Shown: positions 55,042-61,793 of the stretch, piece by piece | How positions within the stretch are numbered: position 1 is the first letter of the stretch | How the letters are laid out: each line of letters starts with the position of its first letter | Source: Roseococcus sp. SDR | GTDB taxonomy: Bacteria > Pseudomonadota > Alphaproteobacteria > Acetobacterales > Acetobacteraceae | Direction of reading: 5' to 3' | Length of the DNA stretch: 64,000 nt | Assembly (NCBI RefSeq): GCF_019083995.1 | Contig: NZ_JAHRCU010000003.1 | Location: forward strand, 248,001-312,000 | Position numbers and translations under genes: made by a program | The notes under the pieces: model-generated | Seen by the model: the letters and a program-made list of their open reading frames with translations, nothing else | Databases searched by the model: none | What the model was told of the DNA's origin: nothing

Positions 55042-55756
55042 GTTGATGTCGCGCTCCCCCGAAGTCGGAGGGGGGTGTTCGAAGAGCGCGCCAGACGCGG
55101 TGTATGGAGCTTACGTGCGGGCCTCCCTTTGTCGCTTTGCCCTTGACCGTTGTTTGCTTGCAGTCCCTGGGCGTTGGGCTTTCCAACCGAGGCGCGTATT
55201 GCCCACCGGCATTTGGATTCAGTCGGGCAGCAGCTCAAGGGAAAGCCGGATGTTGAGTTGGACACTGAACGTCGATCGGGAGCGGTCGTCGCATAGAGGC
55301 TCACGAACTGGGCTGGGGTTACTGCAGGGCGACACACCGGCATTGTCGACCCCTGCGCCAAGACTGGCTGCATAGCGTGGCCATGTCCCGTTCGATGCGG
55401 TCAACACCGCCGACTGCCAGGGTGAACGGAGCGCGATTCGATACCGATCCCAGCGCTGGACATGCGTGCTCGCCATGACGGCGCTTGCCAGCGTCACCTG
55501 CCAGGCGTGGCAGTTCCCGTCGCAGCGCTAACGTTCGATGTCGCCGAGCCGACGGACACCAGCGCCAAAGTGCATGAGACTGCCATCGGCGAGCTGCCTG
55601 AAGATCAGCATGGACCCGCCGGCGCAGGCGCCGCTGCGCGTTTGAAGCGGGCGAGAGGCTCCTGGCCCGGCCGCTCGGCAAAGTCGGGCACAACACCCGA
55701 TAACAAAACTCAACATTTCGCATCCGGGCTGCGCTGGCAACTCTTGGTTGAGAATG
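55042..55756. other. Gene-free or decayed region before the dctP operon
   Basis: About 700 bp without a gene I can support. Open frames exist on both strands (for example 55043-55375 rightward, 55319-55762 leftward) but none shows a protein family, good ribosome site or consistent codon bias. It may be a decayed gene. Near the right end is AACAAAACTCAAC (55702-55714), which recurs with one change before the GH8 gene (60647-60659). Confidence 0.5.
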
Positions 55757-55787
55757 ATACAACCATGCCGTGTTAACTCTTCATTAA
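55757..55787 (+). promoter_or_regulatory. Shared regulatory element, copy 1 (dctP operon)
   Basis: Blocks ATACAAC (55757-55763), AT (55765-55766), TGTTAA (55771-55776) and TTAA (55784-55787) recur with identical spacing at 60686-60716. The TTAA units are 11 bp apart, the spacing of tandem OmpR/PhoB-family half sites. The element ends 22 nt before the dctP start codon; copy 2 ends 22 nt before the GH8 start. Confidence 0.75.
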
Positions 55788-55808
55788 TACAATCCGAGAT
55801 GGCAACGC

Positions 55809-56930
55809 ATGACTGTCGAACCCAGGCGCAGGGGCGCATCGTTGCGGTGGAACCGGCTAGGCCAAGCTGGCCTTAGCGCCCTCGTGGGCCTTGGGGTGGT
55901 GTGTTTGCTCTGGGGTGCCGCGTTTGTACCCGCGCAGGCACAGCCGGCGCCGATCCAACTGAAGATCGTCGGCGGTCTCGCAGGTGTCGCCCAGTTCGAC
56001 CGCTATGAAGTGCCCTTCTGGCTGGAGCGCGTCCCTCGTCTGACGGGCGGCCGCGTTCAAGCTGAGATTGCAGCCTTCGACCGCAGCGGCATCCGCGGCA
56101 ATGAGTTCATCCATCTGATGCGCGTCGGCGTCGTCCCCTTCGGCACCCTGATCCTCACGGTCGCCGGGGCTGACGAGCCTGAGTTGACGGCCTCGGATCT
56201 GGCCGCCCTCAACCCCGACATGGCCCATCTGCGCCGCAATGTGGAGGCGTTCCGGCCTGTCCTGACCCGGATCCTCCGCCAGAACCATCACCTCGAAGTC
56301 CTCGCGGTCTATGCCTATCCGGCTCAGGTGTTGTTCTGTACGAGGCCCTTTACCGGCCTGGGTGACATCGTGGGCCGCCGCGTCCGGACCTCCTCAGCCA
56401 CACAGGCCGATCTTATGGAAGCGGTCGGCGCCATCCCCGTGGTCATCCCCTTCGCCGACATCGTCAGTTCGATACGCCGTGGCGCGGTGGAATGCGCCGT
56501 GACCGGCACGCTGTCGGGAAACTCGATCGGCCTGCACGAGGTCACGAGCCATGTGCATGCGATGGCGCTGTCTTGGGGCGTCAGCGTCTTCGCGGCGCAT
56601 GGGGCGAGTTGGGCCGCGTTGCCGGACGAAGTGCGTACGCAGATCAGCACTGGCCTCGCGGCGCTTGAGGCGGAGATCTGGACCGCAGCGGAGCAGGACA
56701 CCTTACAGGGCCTACGTTGCAACGCAGGCCAAGCGGATTGTGTGGCGGGGCAGCGTGGTCGGATGCGCATTGTCCCGGTAAGCGCCGTCGATGAGGAGAT
56801 CCGGCGACGCCTCGTTCGTCAGACCGTTCTCCCGCGTTGGCTGGAGCGGTGCGGAGATGAGTGTGCGAGGACCTGGAACGAGACCCTGGGCATCAGCACC
56901 GGCATCGAGGCGGGGGTGCCGGCGCGATGA
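55809..56930 (+). CDS. DctP-type TRAP periplasmic solute-binding protein (signalling partner)
   Basis: 373 aa: signal peptide or anchor (LSALVGLGVVCLLWGAAFVP, cleavage near AQAQ, about residue 45) then the DctP fold (ERVPRLTGGRVQAEIAAFDR, VRTSSATQADLMEAVGAIPV VIPFADI, AVECAVTGTLSGNSIGLHEV). No TRAP membrane subunits follow; instead the gene overlaps a hybrid kinase gene by ATGA. Two Cys in the C-terminal part (GLRCNAGQADC) and two near the end (RCGDECARTW) may form disulfides. It is likely a ligand sensor for the kinase rather than a transporter part. Start ATG 55809 lies 22 nt after the shared element. Confidence 0.88.
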   Translation: MTVEPRRRGASLRWNRLGQAGLSALVGLGVVCLLWGAAFVPAQAQPAPIQLKIVGGLAGVAQFDRYEVPFWLERVPRLTGGRVQAEIAAFDRSGIRGNEFIHLMRVGVVPFGTLILTVAGADEPELTASDLAALNPDMAHLRRNVEAFRPVLTRILRQNHHLEVLAVYAYPAQVLFCTRPFTGLGDIVGRRVRTSSATQADLMEAVGAIPVVIPFADIVSSIRRGAVECAVTGTLSGNSIGLHEVTSHVHAMALSWGVSVFAAHGASWAALPDEVRTQISTGLAALEAEIWTAAEQDTLQGLRCNAGQADCVAGQRGRMRIVPVSAVDEEIRRRLVRQTVLPRWLERCGDECARTWNETLGISTGIEAGVPAR

Positions 56931-59818
56931 CCTATGGCCGCCCCCTTCGTATCGGCATCGCTATTTGCGGCGTCCTTCTGCTTCTCACCCAGGCGCTGGC
57001 CGTGGGCGCACTTCTCGACGCATCACGCAGAACTGCCATGGAGAGTGCGACCGGGCTGACCGAACGCGCCGGGCATGCAGTGCGCGACGCCATCAATCGC
57101 ACGCTCTTCCCGGTGGACGCGATGCTAGCGAGCCTGCCCGCCCTGCTCGCCCCTGTCCTTGGCAATCCAGCCGCTTCAGCGGCGGAGCGCGAACTGGAGG
57201 GGGTGAACAGCCAACTGCGCCACCTCAACAGCCAGAACTTTGCCGTCCGCGACATCCTGCTGGTCGATGGCGCGGGGCGCACCGTAGCCGCGGCGCTGCC
57301 GGCTTCGCGCCGCCGACCGCTCGTAGCGCCGATCGGACCGGGCTATGTCAGCGCGGGCCTGAGCGCAGGCGGACTCCTTGTCAGCGAGCCGGTCCGCAAC
57401 CCGGCCACGGGGGAATGGTCGGTATTTTTCGCGCGGCCGATGCAGCTTCCTGGGTTGGGGAACGTGCACGGCGTGGCCGAGGTGCAGGTCCAGATGCTTG
57501 CAAACCTCATGGCACCGGGGATCGAGACCCCGGGTTTGCGCATCTGGCTCGAACGCGCGGGGGGTACGATCCTGGCGGCCACCGCCCAGAACCACGGGCT
57601 TCGTCTGCAGCCCGGCCCCGCAGAGAACATGGGCCCAGCCATCCATCCCTCGCGAATGGACGGTCGCGATGTGATCGGCACCTCATGGCAGACGCTGTAT
57701 CCGGCACTGAGGTTGACAACCGAGATGGAGGTAGACGCGGCGCTCTCGGCCTGGCGAGTCAATCGCGACCGGACGGTGCTGATCTCTGCGGTTTTCGCCT
57801 TGCTGACGATAGCGCTCATGATCGCGCTGATCGTCTGGCTCACTCAGCGTGATCGTGCGGAAGCCGACCGCGTGGCGTGGCGGCGCCAGTTGGAAGATGC
57901 GTTGGACAGCATGACCGATGGCTTCGTCATGTTCGACGCGACAGACCGGCTGGTGGTGTCCAACCGCAGCTACCGCGACATGTATCGCATCTCGGCGCCC
58001 TTCATCAGGCCCGGCGCGCATTTCGACGACATCATCCGCGAGGGAGCCAGGCGTGGCCAGTATCCGCAGTTGCAGGGCGAACCGACCGACGCCGCAATCG
58101 AGGCCTTCCTGCAGGATCTCAAGCTGCGACGCCGCCGGGGCGAACTCCAGCAGTTCGAGCGTCTCCTTCCCGATGGTCGCTGGTTGCTGTTGACCGAACG
58201 CCCCATACCCGACGGCGGCGTGGTAGGCATCCGCACCGACATCACGGAACTCAAGCGCGCAATGGCAGAGCTCAGCGTTGCGCGTGACATGGCGCAGCGC
58301 GCTTCAGCTGCCAAGGGCATGTTCCTGGCCCGCATGTCGCACGAGCTTCGCACGCCGCTGAACGCCGTACTCGGCTTTGCGGAACTGCTCCTGCAGAACG
58401 CGGATCTCGGCACGGGGCAGCGCGAGCAGCTGGGCCTTGTCTACAACGCAGCCGCCCACCTGCGCGATGTGGTGAACACCCTGCTCGATCTCTCCAAGGC
58501 AGAAGCGCGGAGCCTGGACATGAAGCCCCGAGCCACAGCCCTTCGTCCCCTAGCGGAGGTCTGCGCCGCACTCGTCGCTCCAGAGGTAGAGCGCCGGCGC
58601 ATCGCCCTTGCGGTTGACGTTGACGCCGCGCTTCCGGCCACAGTCCTCGTGGATCCGCTTTGCCTCCGCCAGATCCTGCTGAACCTGCTCTCCAACGCGG
58701 TAAAGTTCACCCCGGCGGCAGGACGCGTTGTCATGCGGCTGAGCCAAAGCCGACCCGGCTGGGTGCGCATTGAGGTCGAAGACTCAGGAAGCGGCATTCC
58801 GGAGGAGAAGCGCACGCTGCTGTTTCGCGATTTCAGCCAGATCGGCGCGCCGGTCGAACCCGGGGCGCCTTCCACCGGGCTTGGCCTCGCCATCTCGGCG
58901 CAGCTTGTGGCTGCGATGAACGGCCAGATCGGCTGTGATTCCGCCCCCGTGCGTGGCGCCCTGTTCTGGGTCGAATTGCCGATGCCGGCGATGAGCGAAC
59001 CTGAGGTCGCCGAGGCAGTACCCGCCCCCGAGCCGCCTGCCCCGCCCGAACCCGAGACAGCGCGCCCGCTTCGGTTGCTGGTGGCGGACGATATCCTGGT
59101 CAATCGCAGCCTCGCCCGAGTCATGCTGGAAAAGGCCGGGCATGTCGTAGACTTGGTGGCGGACGGGATGGCGGCCGTGGAGGCAGTCCAACGCACCGCC
59201 TACGATGTCGTGCTGATGGACGTGCAGATGCCCGGTATGGACGGCCTGGAGGCGACGCGTCGCATCCGCGCGCTGGAGGGCCCGGCCGGCCAGGTCGTCA
59301 TCATCGCCCTAAGCGCCTCGGCCATGGTGGATCAGGTGCAGTCCTGCCTCGATGCCGGCATGGATGGGCATCTGGCCAAGCCAATCAATCGCGCACAGCT
59401 GCTTGAAAAGCTGGCGGATGTCACGCGCCGCCGGGGCGGACCGCCCGAGGTGCCGGCCGAGGTGCTCGCGCAGGGCGCCGCGCGGCTGCGTGCCCGTATG
59501 GGGGCCGCAGCCGAGCCTGTCATTCGTGGGCTCATGCAGGAGATTCGGACAGGGCTTGAGGTGGTCCCCGAACACGCCGCGCGCGGCGATATGACCAACC
59601 TCGCCGCAGCCGCTCGGCGACTCGCGCCCGTACTGCGCGAGTTGGATGCTGACGCGGCAGCCGAGGCGACGATGCGGCTGGGCCACGCTGCGACGAATGG
59701 CGGCGAGTTGTCAGGCGCGCTCGCGGACTGGCAGCAGATAACGGCTGGGCTTGCACGCGAACTTCGCGAAACGGACCATGCAGTGATGGAGGAGGGGCAT
59801 GCGCCGGGCGGACGGTGA
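56927..59818 (+). CDS. Hybrid sensor histidine kinase with degenerate HPt-like tail
   Basis: 963 aa. First span (about 9-30), periplasmic double-Cache-like sensor (about 31-280), second span (284-305), PAS (about 325-440; FVMFDATDRLVVSNRSYRDM), HisKA with His472 (in ARMSHELRTPLNAV), HATPase (NLLSNAVKF, DSGSGIPEE, STGLGLAIS), a Pro-rich linker (690-712), receiver with phosphoacceptor Asp765 (VVLMDVQMPGMDG) and Lys818, and a helical C-terminal segment (845-950) shaped like an HPt domain. Where HPt has AH-x-LKG the sequence reads AR-R-LAP (Arg897), so the phospho-His is missing. Operon overlap with DctP (ATGA) and with the next regulator. Kinase activity itself looks intact. Confidence 0.92.
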   Translation: MTYGRPLRIGIAICGVLLLLTQALAVGALLDASRRTAMESATGLTERAGHAVRDAINRTLFPVDAMLASLPALLAPVLGNPAASAAERELEGVNSQLRHLNSQNFAVRDILLVDGAGRTVAAALPASRRRPLVAPIGPGYVSAGLSAGGLLVSEPVRNPATGEWSVFFARPMQLPGLGNVHGVAEVQVQMLANLMAPGIETPGLRIWLERAGGTILAATAQNHGLRLQPGPAENMGPAIHPSRMDGRDVIGTSWQTLYPALRLTTEMEVDAALSAWRVNRDRTVLISAVFALLTIALMIALIVWLTQRDRAEADRVAWRRQLEDALDSMTDGFVMFDATDRLVVSNRSYRDMYRISAPFIRPGAHFDDIIREGARRGQYPQLQGEPTDAAIEAFLQDLKLRRRRGELQQFERLLPDGRWLLLTERPIPDGGVVGIRTDITELKRAMAELSVARDMAQRASAAKGMFLARMSHELRTPLNAVLGFAELLLQNADLGTGQREQLGLVYNAAAHLRDVVNTLLDLSKAEARSLDMKPRATALRPLAEVCAALVAPEVERRRIALAVDVDAALPATVLVDPLCLRQILLNLLSNAVKFTPAAGRVVMRLSQSRPGWVRIEVEDSGSGIPEEKRTLLFRDFSQIGAPVEPGAPSTGLGLAISAQLVAAMNGQIGCDSAPVRGALFWVELPMPAMSEPEVAEAVPAPEPPAPPEPETARPLRLLVADDILVNRSLARVMLEKAGHVVDLVADGMAAVEAVQRTAYDVVLMDVQMPGMDGLEATRRIRALEGPAGQVVIIALSASAMVDQVQSCLDAGMDGHLAKPINRAQLLEKLADVTRRRGGPPEVPAEVLAQGAARLRARMGAAAEPVIRGLMQEIRTGLEVVPEHAARGDMTNLAAAARRLAPVLRELDADAAAEATMRLGHAATNGGELSGALADWQQITAGLARELRETDHAVMEEGHAPGGR

Positions 59819-60632
59819 CGTGACCCTGGGTCGTCCGCGCCGGTCAGCCCCCTCATACCTGCCCTCCCTACCGGACGCATCGTCACAGGGCCAAAGGCCC
59901 ACAGCGGCTCCGAGCCGGCACGGCCGTGGCGAGGCCACCGCGCCGTCACGGGGCTTGGCTGAACGAATTCTCTTGTTGGACCAGGATGCGGAGCACCTGC
60001 GTCGCCTCACGCAGTATCTCACGGGGCACGGCTACCGGGTCACTGCCATACAGGGCGCGGATGAACTGCCAGTGCGGCTGCAGTTGGAGTCGCCCGATCT
60101 CATCTTGCTCGAACAGCGCCTTGGAGACGTCACGGGTACCGAGGTGCTGGGCCGCATTCGTGCGGTTTCAAGCGTGCCGGTCATCATCCTCACCGCGCAA
60201 TCGGATCCGGTGGATCGCATCATCAACCTCGAGATGGGCGCTGACGACCAGGTGCACAAATCCGTCCCGGAGCGGGAGATCATGGCGCGCATGCGCGCTG
60301 TGCTGCGCCGGATGCAAGGCTCTGCCTACCGCTCACAGCCTGCTTGGGTGCTCTCGGAAGGTCGGCGGGATGTGGTTCGCCCTGACGGCTCCGCCTGCGG
60401 CCTGACGACTGCCGAGTTCGGCGTGTTGCGTGCCCTCGCCTCGGCAGAAGGCCAAGCCGTCACGCGCGCTGAATTGTGCGAGAGAGTGCTCGGACGGCCG
60501 CTGCATCCTGGGGATCGGGCGGTAGACACAGTGATCTGCAAGCTTCGCCAGAAGCTTGCTCCAGGCGTCATCGTGACGGTGCGGCCCGCGGGTTACGCCT
60601 TCGCTGGCTTCCCGAGCCCAGCGGCTGGCTGA
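59799..60632 (+). CDS. OmpR-family response regulator with Asp-to-Glu phosphoacceptor
   Basis: 277 aa. A Pro/Arg/Ser-rich 52-aa N-terminal extension precedes a receiver (about 55-170) and an OmpR winged helix (about 180-270; CGLTTAEFGVLRALASAEGQ, RAVDTVICKLRQKL, VRPAGYAFAG). In the receiver the phosphoacceptor position reads LILLEQRLGD, Glu105 (codon GAA at 60111-60113) where LxLxDLxLP is expected; the acidic pair is Asp61/Asp63, and the KPF motif is KSV. This predicts a phospho-independent, possibly constitutively active regulator. ATG 59799 is backed by a strong GGAGGAGGGG directly upstream and lies inside the kinase gene end. Confidence 0.9.
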   Translation: MRRADGDVTLGRPRRSAPSYLPSLPDASSQGQRPTAAPSRHGRGEATAPSRGLAERILLLDQDAEHLRRLTQYLTGHGYRVTAIQGADELPVRLQLESPDLILLEQRLGDVTGTEVLGRIRAVSSVPVIILTAQSDPVDRIINLEMGADDQVHKSVPEREIMARMRAVLRRMQGSAYRSQPAWVLSEGRRDVVRPDGSACGLTTAEFGVLRALASAEGQAVTRAELCERVLGRPLHPGDRAVDTVICKLRQKLAPGVIVTVRPAGYAFAGFPSPAAG

Positions 60633-60685
60633 CGGCGGGGCCGATCAACACAACTCAACCATTCTCCACCTCGTTGCGACTTTGC

Positions 60686-60716
60686 ATACAACTATAGGTT
60701 GTTAATATCGAGTTAA
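60686..60716 (+). promoter_or_regulatory. Shared regulatory element, copy 2 (GH8 gene)
   Basis: ATACAAC (60686-60692), AT (60694-60695), TGTTAA (60700-60705) and TTAA (60713-60716), with the same spacing as copy 1 at 55757-55787. The two TTAA units are 11 bp apart. It ends 22 nt before the GH8 start codon, as copy 1 does before dctP. Also contains the palindrome ACAAC-TATAG-GTTGT (60689-60703). Confidence 0.75.
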
Positions 60717-60737
60717 CACTCCGCCGGAACCAGATGC

Positions 60738-61793
60738 ATGCCCGCTTCGCTTAACCGACGCGCCATCCTCTCGCTCCCAGCCCTCTCCCTCGGGCTGGCC
60801 CCGTTCGAAGCTGCGGCGGAGTTCTCCGCCTGGGGGCACTTTAAGCAACGCTTTGTCACTCCGTCGGGCCGAATTGTGGACAACGGCAACGGTGGGATCT
60901 CACACTCCGAAGGTCAGGCCTGGGGCATGCTCCTGGCAACTATCCATGACGACCGCGCAGCCTTCGAGCGCATCTTTCGATGGACCCGCTCCACCCTCGC
61001 CATCCGAGGCGACCGTCTCCTGGCTTGGCGGTTCCGCCCGATCGGTGGCGTGGATGACATCAACTCCGCGACGGATGCCGACATCTTCCACGCCTGGGCT
61101 CTGCTCCGCGCCGAGGAGCGCTGGCCTGGACAAGGCTACCGCCCCCTGGCAATCGCCATTGCGCAGGACATCCTGCGCGTATCATGCCGGCAGATCGGCG
61201 GACGAGTGGTGCTGATGCCGGGCGCCTGGGGCTTCGACCACGGGACGCATCTGGTGCTCAACCCCTCCTATTATGTTTTCCCAGCGCTCGAGGCGCTGGC
61301 CGCTGCGCATCCCCATCCCGCCTGGCCGGCCCTCATCGCGGAAGGTGACAGAATGCTGATGGAATCTCGCCATGGGCGCTGGTCGCTTCCGGCGGATTGG
61401 GTGGTGATGCGGCGGCCAGGCGCACCAGTCGAGCCAGAGCCCGTTCGCGGCGACCGCTTCGGTGACGACGCCGTGCGGCTGCCCATCTATCTGGCATGGT
61501 CAGGGCGCTGGCAGACGCCGCTGATGCAGCGAGTGGCCGGCTTCTGGGCCGACCCCAGGCATCCTTACCAGCCGGCATGGGTCACCCTGAGCGACAACCG
61601 GATTGCGCCCTTTGCCGCCAGTCGCGGCCATGCGGCCATCCGCCGCCTGGTGCAGCCGACGGCGCCGGAGGGGCTTGCGGATGCCGTCACGGACCTCGGC
61701 TATTACAGCAGCAGTCTCGCTTTGCTGGCGGAAGCCGCCGCGGCCGAAGCCCCCATGCGAGGCAGCGCGCGCGTCGCATCGCTCGCGCGCTGA
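60738..61793 (+). CDS. Secreted glycoside hydrolase family 8 (endoglucanase/BcsZ-like)
   Basis: 351 aa: signal peptide MPASLNRRAILSLPALSLGL (cleavage near AAA-EF, about residue 26), then an (alpha/alpha)6 GH8 domain. Proton donor Glu in GISHSEGQAWGMLL (about residue 58) and the catalytic-region Asp in NSATDADIFHAWAL (about 112) are present; later segments LNPSYYVFPALEALAAAHPH and DAVRLPIYLAWSGRW match BcsZ/CMCax enzymes that cut beta-1,4-glucans. No cellulose synthase genes are nearby. The upstream shared element suggests control by the preceding regulator. It ends at a bidirectional terminator. Confidence 0.92.
   Translation: MPASLNRRAILSLPALSLGLAPFEAAAEFSAWGHFKQRFVTPSGRIVDNGNGGISHSEGQAWGMLLATIHDDRAAFERIFRWTRSTLAIRGDRLLAWRFRPIGGVDDINSATDADIFHAWALLRAEERWPGQGYRPLAIAIAQDILRVSCRQIGGRVVLMPGAWGFDHGTHLVLNPSYYVFPALEALAAAHPHPAWPALIAEGDRMLMESRHGRWSLPADWVVMRRPGAPVEPEPVRGDRFGDDAVRLPIYLAWSGRWQTPLMQRVAGFWADPRHPYQPAWVTLSDNRIAPFAASRGHAAIRRLVQPTAPEGLADAVTDLGYYSSSLALLAEAAAAEAPMRGSARVASLAR

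Follow-up and report, generated by a model that had tools for sequence, protein, structure and literature searches.

According to a passage in PMC11264516, TTAA-N7-TTAA is the consensus sequence of CtrA; the box is found at -35 in most CtrA-activated promoters of Caulobacter, and CtrA can also repress, via a half-site at -10. As to the proteins that read such boxes, a passage in a 2025 review (PMC12632262) defines pseudo-receivers as receivers in which a key phosphotransfer residue is missing, and calls their switching in bacteria a mystery. In a survey given in this review, 2.0% of receivers are without the Asp and 0.9% of Hpt domains are without the His; Glu is described there as a common replacement of Asp, phosphomimetic in many regulators, although this role has been disproved in some. 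The OmpR-type regulator considered here falls under this definition, having Glu in the place of the phospho-Asp. Its locus lies in a stretch of 64 kb, called the window; the genome of the window is G000. The features of the locus are as follows.

55702..55714, + strand: distal box of the dctP promoter, AACAAAACTCAAC (from the sequence; conserved with TACAA behind it in 7 dctP promoters of the genus)
55757..55787, + strand: 31-bp shared element before dctP, ATACAACCATGCCGTGTTAACTCTTCATTAA, with TACAAC core and TTAA-N7-TTAA (motif counts; footprint in 5 genomes)
55772..55788, no strand: GTTAA-N7-TTAA(T), CtrA-type box, imperfect dyad (from the sequence; consensus in a passage of PMC11264516)
55809..56930, + strand: dctP, TRAP-type solute-binding protein (Pfam DctP; NCBIfam TRAP_S1 above cut-off)
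56927..59818, + strand: hybrid histidine kinase (PAS, HisKA, HATPase, REC) with a C-terminal HPt-like remnant, His replaced by Arg (Pfam, alignment)
59799..60632, + strand: OmpR-type regulator with a pseudo-receiver, which has Glu for the phospho-Asp; recognition helix with CKLR (Pfam, alignment)
60647..60659, + strand: distal box of the GH8 promoter, AACACAACTCAAC (from the sequence; genus search)
60686..60716, + strand: 31-bp shared element before GH8, ATACAACTATAGGTTGTTAATATCGAGTTAA (motif counts, footprint)
60688..60702, no strand: 15-bp dyad ACAACTATAGGTTGT in the GH8 promoter (identical in G000, G015 and G014; one change in G005)
60701..60717, no strand: GTTAA-N7-TTAAC, CtrA-type box, perfect dyad arms (from the sequence; footprint)
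60738..61793, + strand: GH8 glycoside hydrolase, BcsZ-like (Pfam Glyco_hydro_8; NCBIfam BcsZ 149 bits, cut-off 299)

The stop codon of dctP overlaps the start of the kinase gene, and there is a second overlap, between the end of the kinase gene and the first start that is possible for the regulator gene. The N-terminus of the GH8 protein resembles, by eye, a signal peptide. A search for conserved RNA between 55000 and 61500 gave no Rfam match at gathering scores.

The element shared by the dctP and GH8 promoters

The original prediction was that the blocks ATACAAC, AT, TGTTAA and TTAA recur in register before dctP and before GH8, at an equal distance from the start codon. Both parts of it stand: the blocks are found at the predicted coordinates, and 21 nt separate the end of each element from the ATG (at 55809 and 60738, respectively), the last base of the element being 22 nt upstream of the A. 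The two 31-mers are identical at 19 of 31 positions; when the two 60-nt promoters were shuffled by mononucleotides 200,000 times and compared at one fixed offset, this level was reached 5 times. The shared pattern ATACAAC-N7-TGTTAA-N7-TTAA occurs in 2 copies in the window; with up to 3 mismatches allowed, the gapped motif still gives 2 matches, against a mean of 0.00 in 100 dinucleotide shuffles, and TTAA-N7-TTAA alone also gives 2 (55773-55787 and 60702-60716, both exact), against a mean of 0.01. The whole 5.0-Mb genome G000 contains 5 exact TTAA-N7-TTAA sites, 2 of them at this locus, and 2 sites of the control pattern read backwards.

The 11-bp spacing of the TTAA pair had been taken to indicate tandem binding by a protein of the OmpR/PhoB type. 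The 11-bp step is indeed there, but TTAA is self-complementary, so that the step alone does not show tandem direct repeats, and the flanks form the dyad GTTAA-N7-TTAAC. Eight sites taken together read as this dyad, the left G being present in 8 of 8 and the right C in 5 of 8 (the GH8 promoter of G005, where the pair has been lost, is left out of this table as well as of the GH8 identities given below). The second string that was said to be shared farther upstream is present at 55702-55714 and 60647-60659; its distance to the element, however, differs, being 42 nt at dctP and 26 nt at GH8.

Conservation of the promoter parts among relatives

The observation is sound, and it extends to relatives, in which the element has been retained before dctP as well as before GH8. 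Four genomes, G000, G015, G014 and G005, have their genes in the order dctP-kinase-regulator-GH8 (the fused operon), and the TTAA pair, with 0 or 1 mismatch, is present before dctP in all four and before GH8 in three, having been lost in G005. The dctP promoters of these genomes and of L057 align without gaps over ACAACC, GTTAA, N7 and TTAA; relative to G000, identity amounts to 93-100% at the box positions and to 36-50% in the spacers, and the silent (four-fold degenerate) sites of the same genes in G015, G014 and G005 are 44-48% identical. In the GH8 promoter, G015 keeps 100% of the box of G000 and G014 keeps 93%, with the N7 being 14% identical. The GH8 promoter of G005 has retained ATACAACTATAAGTTGT; there, two TTAA with a shorter gap lie upstream. 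The box of L057 has one mismatch, and its contig is without the regulator gene; L057 is located in genome G428, the best regulator matches of which share the coordinates and scores of those in G019, and G428 and G019 were counted as one. TTAA-N7-TTAA was found in none of the dctP promoters of G001, G007, G008 and G012.

These data bear on the view that the likeness arose by chance between two AT-rich promoters of a GC-rich genome. Such a view would be compatible with the mere two copies in the window and with the lack of enrichment of TTAA-N7-TTAA across the genus; however, the motif is not matched in the shuffles, the spacers drift while the box is kept, and the specificity extends across 21 genomes. 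Shuffles and conservation together rule out chance, the probability of which appears to us close to nil.

The distal box and TACAA are more widely kept than the TTAA pair. In 21 genomes of the genus, ACAMAACTCNAC-N15to45-TACAA has 10 matches, namely 7 dctP promoters (span 60-61) and 3 GH8 promoters (span 44), and none outside this locus; the reversed control has none either. Not caught by this search are the dctP copy of G012, which is degenerate, that of L057, which is without the distal box, and the GH8 copy of G005. In 397 genomes of the family, the pattern gives 8 matches, of which 6 belong to this locus and the other 2 lie outside it, in G311 and G298, as compared to 11 for the reversed control. 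The dctP promoters of G001, G007 and G008 keep the distal box and TACAA without having the TTAA pair. Among the wider dctP relatives, 5 have the distal box without mismatch, all of them in this genus (79 of 80 loci were scanned, L065 being without upstream sequence).

From the dctP promoters of G001, G007 and G008, it can be envisaged that the distal box, the TACAAC core and/or the dyads are the target of another factor, that the promoters resemble each other owing to the copying of one promoter, and that the TTAA pair is secondary. The retention of the second GH8 dyad, ACAACTATAGGTTGT, even where the TTAA pair has been lost (G005) would fit as well. However, the TTAA positions are kept while the spacers drift, and the gene for a helix-turn-helix (HTH) protein that stands beside dctP in four relatives, a candidate reader of the distal box, had to be dismissed: at E up to 1e-10, nothing close to it is encoded in G000, G015 and G014, and G005 has only a 37% match. 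We regard the involvement of another factor as rather unlikely.

Several observations on the distal box stand on their own. The HTH gene precedes dctP in G001, G007, G008 and G012 (L043:4875-4887, L041 near 6086, L042 near 12007 and L039 near 12096), and its promoter contains a conserved block with a second distal box and GCACAACC; the box is exact in G001 and has 1-2 mismatches in the others. The distal box alone (ACAMAACTCNACA) was rejected as a marker of further members: it has 11 exact matches in the 21 genomes, 7 here and 4 elsewhere, none of the latter with TACAA at the searched spacing and two without a clear gene start. At one of these matches, G015:C1:559413, a start codon follows roughly 100 nt behind. 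At L236 (G008:C12:30291-30303, minus strand), an open reading frame that resembles, by eye, a Ser/Thr kinase has its first possible start 17 nt behind an exact distal box; this may be chance.

Phosphotransfer residues and candidate binding proteins

The regulator consists of the Pfam receiver and Trans_reg_C domains. Its phospho-Asp is replaced by Glu in G000, G015, G014 and G005, and Asp is kept in six other copies. The HPt His of the kinase is Arg in G000, G015 and G014, whereas G005 has Glu there; in G012 the His is displaced, and L057 is without the domain; the His is kept in G001, G007 and G008 as well as in six other Acetobacteraceae (L058, L059, L060, L067, L073 and L081). Nine outside kinases were chosen from 80 loci, L092 and L095 being of another architecture and L057 being without HPt. 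In relatives, the counterpart of the kinase's C-terminus is an HPt domain: the Pfam Hpt model matched all 4 submitted relatives, 3 of them above cut-off, and left the kinase of the window unmatched; the kinase's own receiver Asp is intact. Thus, both sites, the HPt His and the receiver Asp, are lost in 4 of 4 fused-operon genomes, and HPt loss occurs also outside them (G012 and L057). Judging from these residues, the regulator probably takes no functional part in a phosphorelay.

The gene neighbourhoods were surveyed in the best 80 of 275 dctP relatives (L055-L134), the named ones being mostly Roseococcus, Roseomonas, Falsiroseomonas, Rubritepida and their kin. A kinase gene directly follows dctP in 61 of the 80 loci (58 of the 73 with more than 3.5 kb of room), in alpha- and betaproteobacteria alike. 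The two genes make up a widespread sensor pair, and, given that the kinase follows dctP, the TRAP-type binding protein probably serves the kinase as its sensor subunit. Within the same 80 loci, a regulator of at least 45% identity is found nearby in 6, all of this genus (L090 has a 31% match), and GH8 in 2, G014 and G005, to which G000 and G015 add two fused operons. We read the regulator and GH8 as later additions to the dctP-kinase pair. In other genera, regulators of this type (37-40% identical) adjoin GH8 at two loci of G035 (C64 and C54) and in G026 (C75), the three loci being L215, L216 and L217, an adjacency which supports a working link between the regulator and the enzyme.

Which protein, then, would bind the TTAA box? 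The recognition helix reads the bases, and among the 23 Trans_reg_C domains of G000, CKLR is found in this helix only in CtrA and in the local regulator. The second position of CKLR in the regulator is Lys in all 5 genomes with the TTAA pair before dctP (0 or 1 mismatch) and Asn in all 4 without it; the Fisher value is 0.008, which ignores kinship and refers to the dctP promoters only. G012, with an Asn regulator, has an exact TTAA-N7-TTAA before the HTH gene of the locus, and G007 a one-mismatch version there, which counts against a clean link between the box and the type of regulator. Literature searches found nothing relevant on the CtrA recognition helix and, judged by title and the start of the abstract, nothing relevant on Roseomonas with CtrA.

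The binder could also be CtrA itself, which would then control the sensor operon and GH8, with the local regulator acting elsewhere or at the distal box. CtrA is encoded in G000 (G000:C29): with NF045991, its best of 104 families, the protein scores 345 bits and narrowly misses the cut-off of 350, and its receiver matches CtrA in the PDB. The box is the exact published consensus (in the passage of PMC11264516 cited above). Furthermore, in G000, G015 and G017, TTAA-N7-TTAA lies some 24-27 nt before a small histidine-kinase-like gene with HATPase only (L159:5764-5778, that is, G000:C6:36763-36777; L158:3999-4013; L160:1029-1043), with GANTC beside the box, as is expected of a CtrA target; from its sequence, this looks like an ordinary CtrA-controlled promoter of the cell-cycle type. 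However, the left flank of the box is T at these kinase-gene sites, as opposed to G in 8 of 8 sites of our locus; GANTC is absent from 5 of the 9 dctP and GH8 promoters examined; and the exact motif is not enriched in the 21 genus genomes (48 sites versus 89 for the control pattern). Moreover, whereas activated Caulobacter promoters mostly carry the box at -35 (same passage of PMC11264516), here it ends 21 nt from the ATG, a distance that leaves little room for a transcription start farther downstream. CtrA is the foremost alternative to the local regulator, but on balance we deem its control of both promoters unlikely.

No sign of a wider polysaccharide regulon was seen: of the other 3 of the 5 TTAA-N7-TTAA sites in the 5.0 Mb of G000, one is located before the histidine-kinase-like gene, one precedes a DUF1194 gene by about 200 nt, and one has no clear gene behind it. 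Five sites in the genome speak for a local two-promoter unit instead. Protein annotation at further TTAA-N7-TTAA sites left out L161, L168 and L176 of ten and added L177. At L167:2045-2059 (G006:C1:312144-312158), the start of a DegT-family aminotransferase gene follows TTAACCGAAGGTTAA after a few nt, which may be chance. The claim that GH8 is tied to the neighbouring regulator is thus supported in part: both promoters have a conserved operator in common, but the unit is local, the regulator has no phosphorylatable Asp, and the box is also the CtrA consensus.

Taken together, the data suggest an autoregulated unit in which the operon's own OmpR-type regulator would act on both promoters without phosphorylation, a proposal that, in our estimate, has about an even chance of being correct. 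The box stands in the promoter of the regulator's own operon and in that of the gene that follows it; all 10 matches of the distal box with TACAA in the genus are at this locus; CKLR is confined to CtrA and the local regulator, with the Lys/Asn pattern described; Glu replaces Asp and the HPt His is lost in 4 of 4 fused-operon genomes; and such regulators adjoin GH8 in G035 and G026. Counting against the local regulator are the box of L057 on a contig without it, the loss of the GH8 pair in G005 even though the regulator there keeps Lys, the HPt loss in G012 and L057, the identity of the box with the CtrA consensus, and its shape, since OmpR-type proteins bind head to tail and a dyad is not typical of them.

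With the local regulator as the binder, the two elements would be copies of one composite control region made up of the distal box ACAMAACTCNAC, the TACAAC core and the GTTAA-N7-TTAAC box of CtrA type, the last being read by a winged-helix protein of the OmpR/CtrA type, most likely this regulator. Because Glu has replaced Asp in the receiver and the kinase has lost the HPt His, it would act without phosphorylation, and the outcome would be autoregulation of dctP-kinase-regulator with matched control of GH8. TACAAC may be a -10 sequence; by eye, no conserved -35 is seen for it. In that case, transcription would start at or near the TTAA box, as suits repression, and the centre of the distal box would be near -61 at dctP and -45 at GH8, as suits an activator; judging from position, the TTAA box is more likely to be repressive and the distal box to represent the activator side.

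More tentatively still, and with considerable doubt, one might envisage a transition from a phosphorelay to a phosphorylation-independent switch: the HPt His and the Asp would have been lost when the regulator and GH8 joined the DctP-kinase operon, control would depend on a CtrA-like operator in each of the two promoters, and the regulator would share the DNA code of CtrA and could compete with it.

Comparison with described systems

The locus combines a Glu-for-Asp regulator that has Asp-containing relatives in the same genus, a candidate operator with two sites, and a kinase without the HPt His, so that the change from phosphorylated to phosphorylation-independent control could be studied here by comparison; it also raises the possibility of a second regulator with the recognition code of CtrA.

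The box has the half-sites and spacing of the CtrA box of Alphaproteobacteria. It differs in its position 21 nt before the ATG, in the left G of 8 of 8 sites, in being surrounded by a distal box and a TACAAC core, and in having a second CKLR regulator beside it. The layout is that of TorT-TorS-TorR (periplasmic binding protein, hybrid kinase, OmpR-type regulator), and TorS and TorR are the best NCBIfam models for the kinase and the regulator; however, the kinase scores 302.6 bits against a TorS cut-off of 676.5 and the regulator 121.4 against 275 for TorR, the binding protein is of the DctP type, and the HPt His (with Arg in its place) and the receiver Asp are lost. With the atypical OmpR-family proteins ChxR and HP1043, according to the part of the literature that describes them as pseudo-receivers, the regulator shares an OmpR-type DNA-binding domain behind a receiver without the normal phosphorylation site; unlike them, it is still encoded with a hybrid kinase, and its relatives in the same genus keep the Asp. 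Finally, the enzyme has the GH8 domain of BcsZ-type endoglucanases, BcsZ being its sole NCBIfam match, but it scores below the BcsZ cut-off and is encoded beside a regulator, not within an operon for cellulose synthase.
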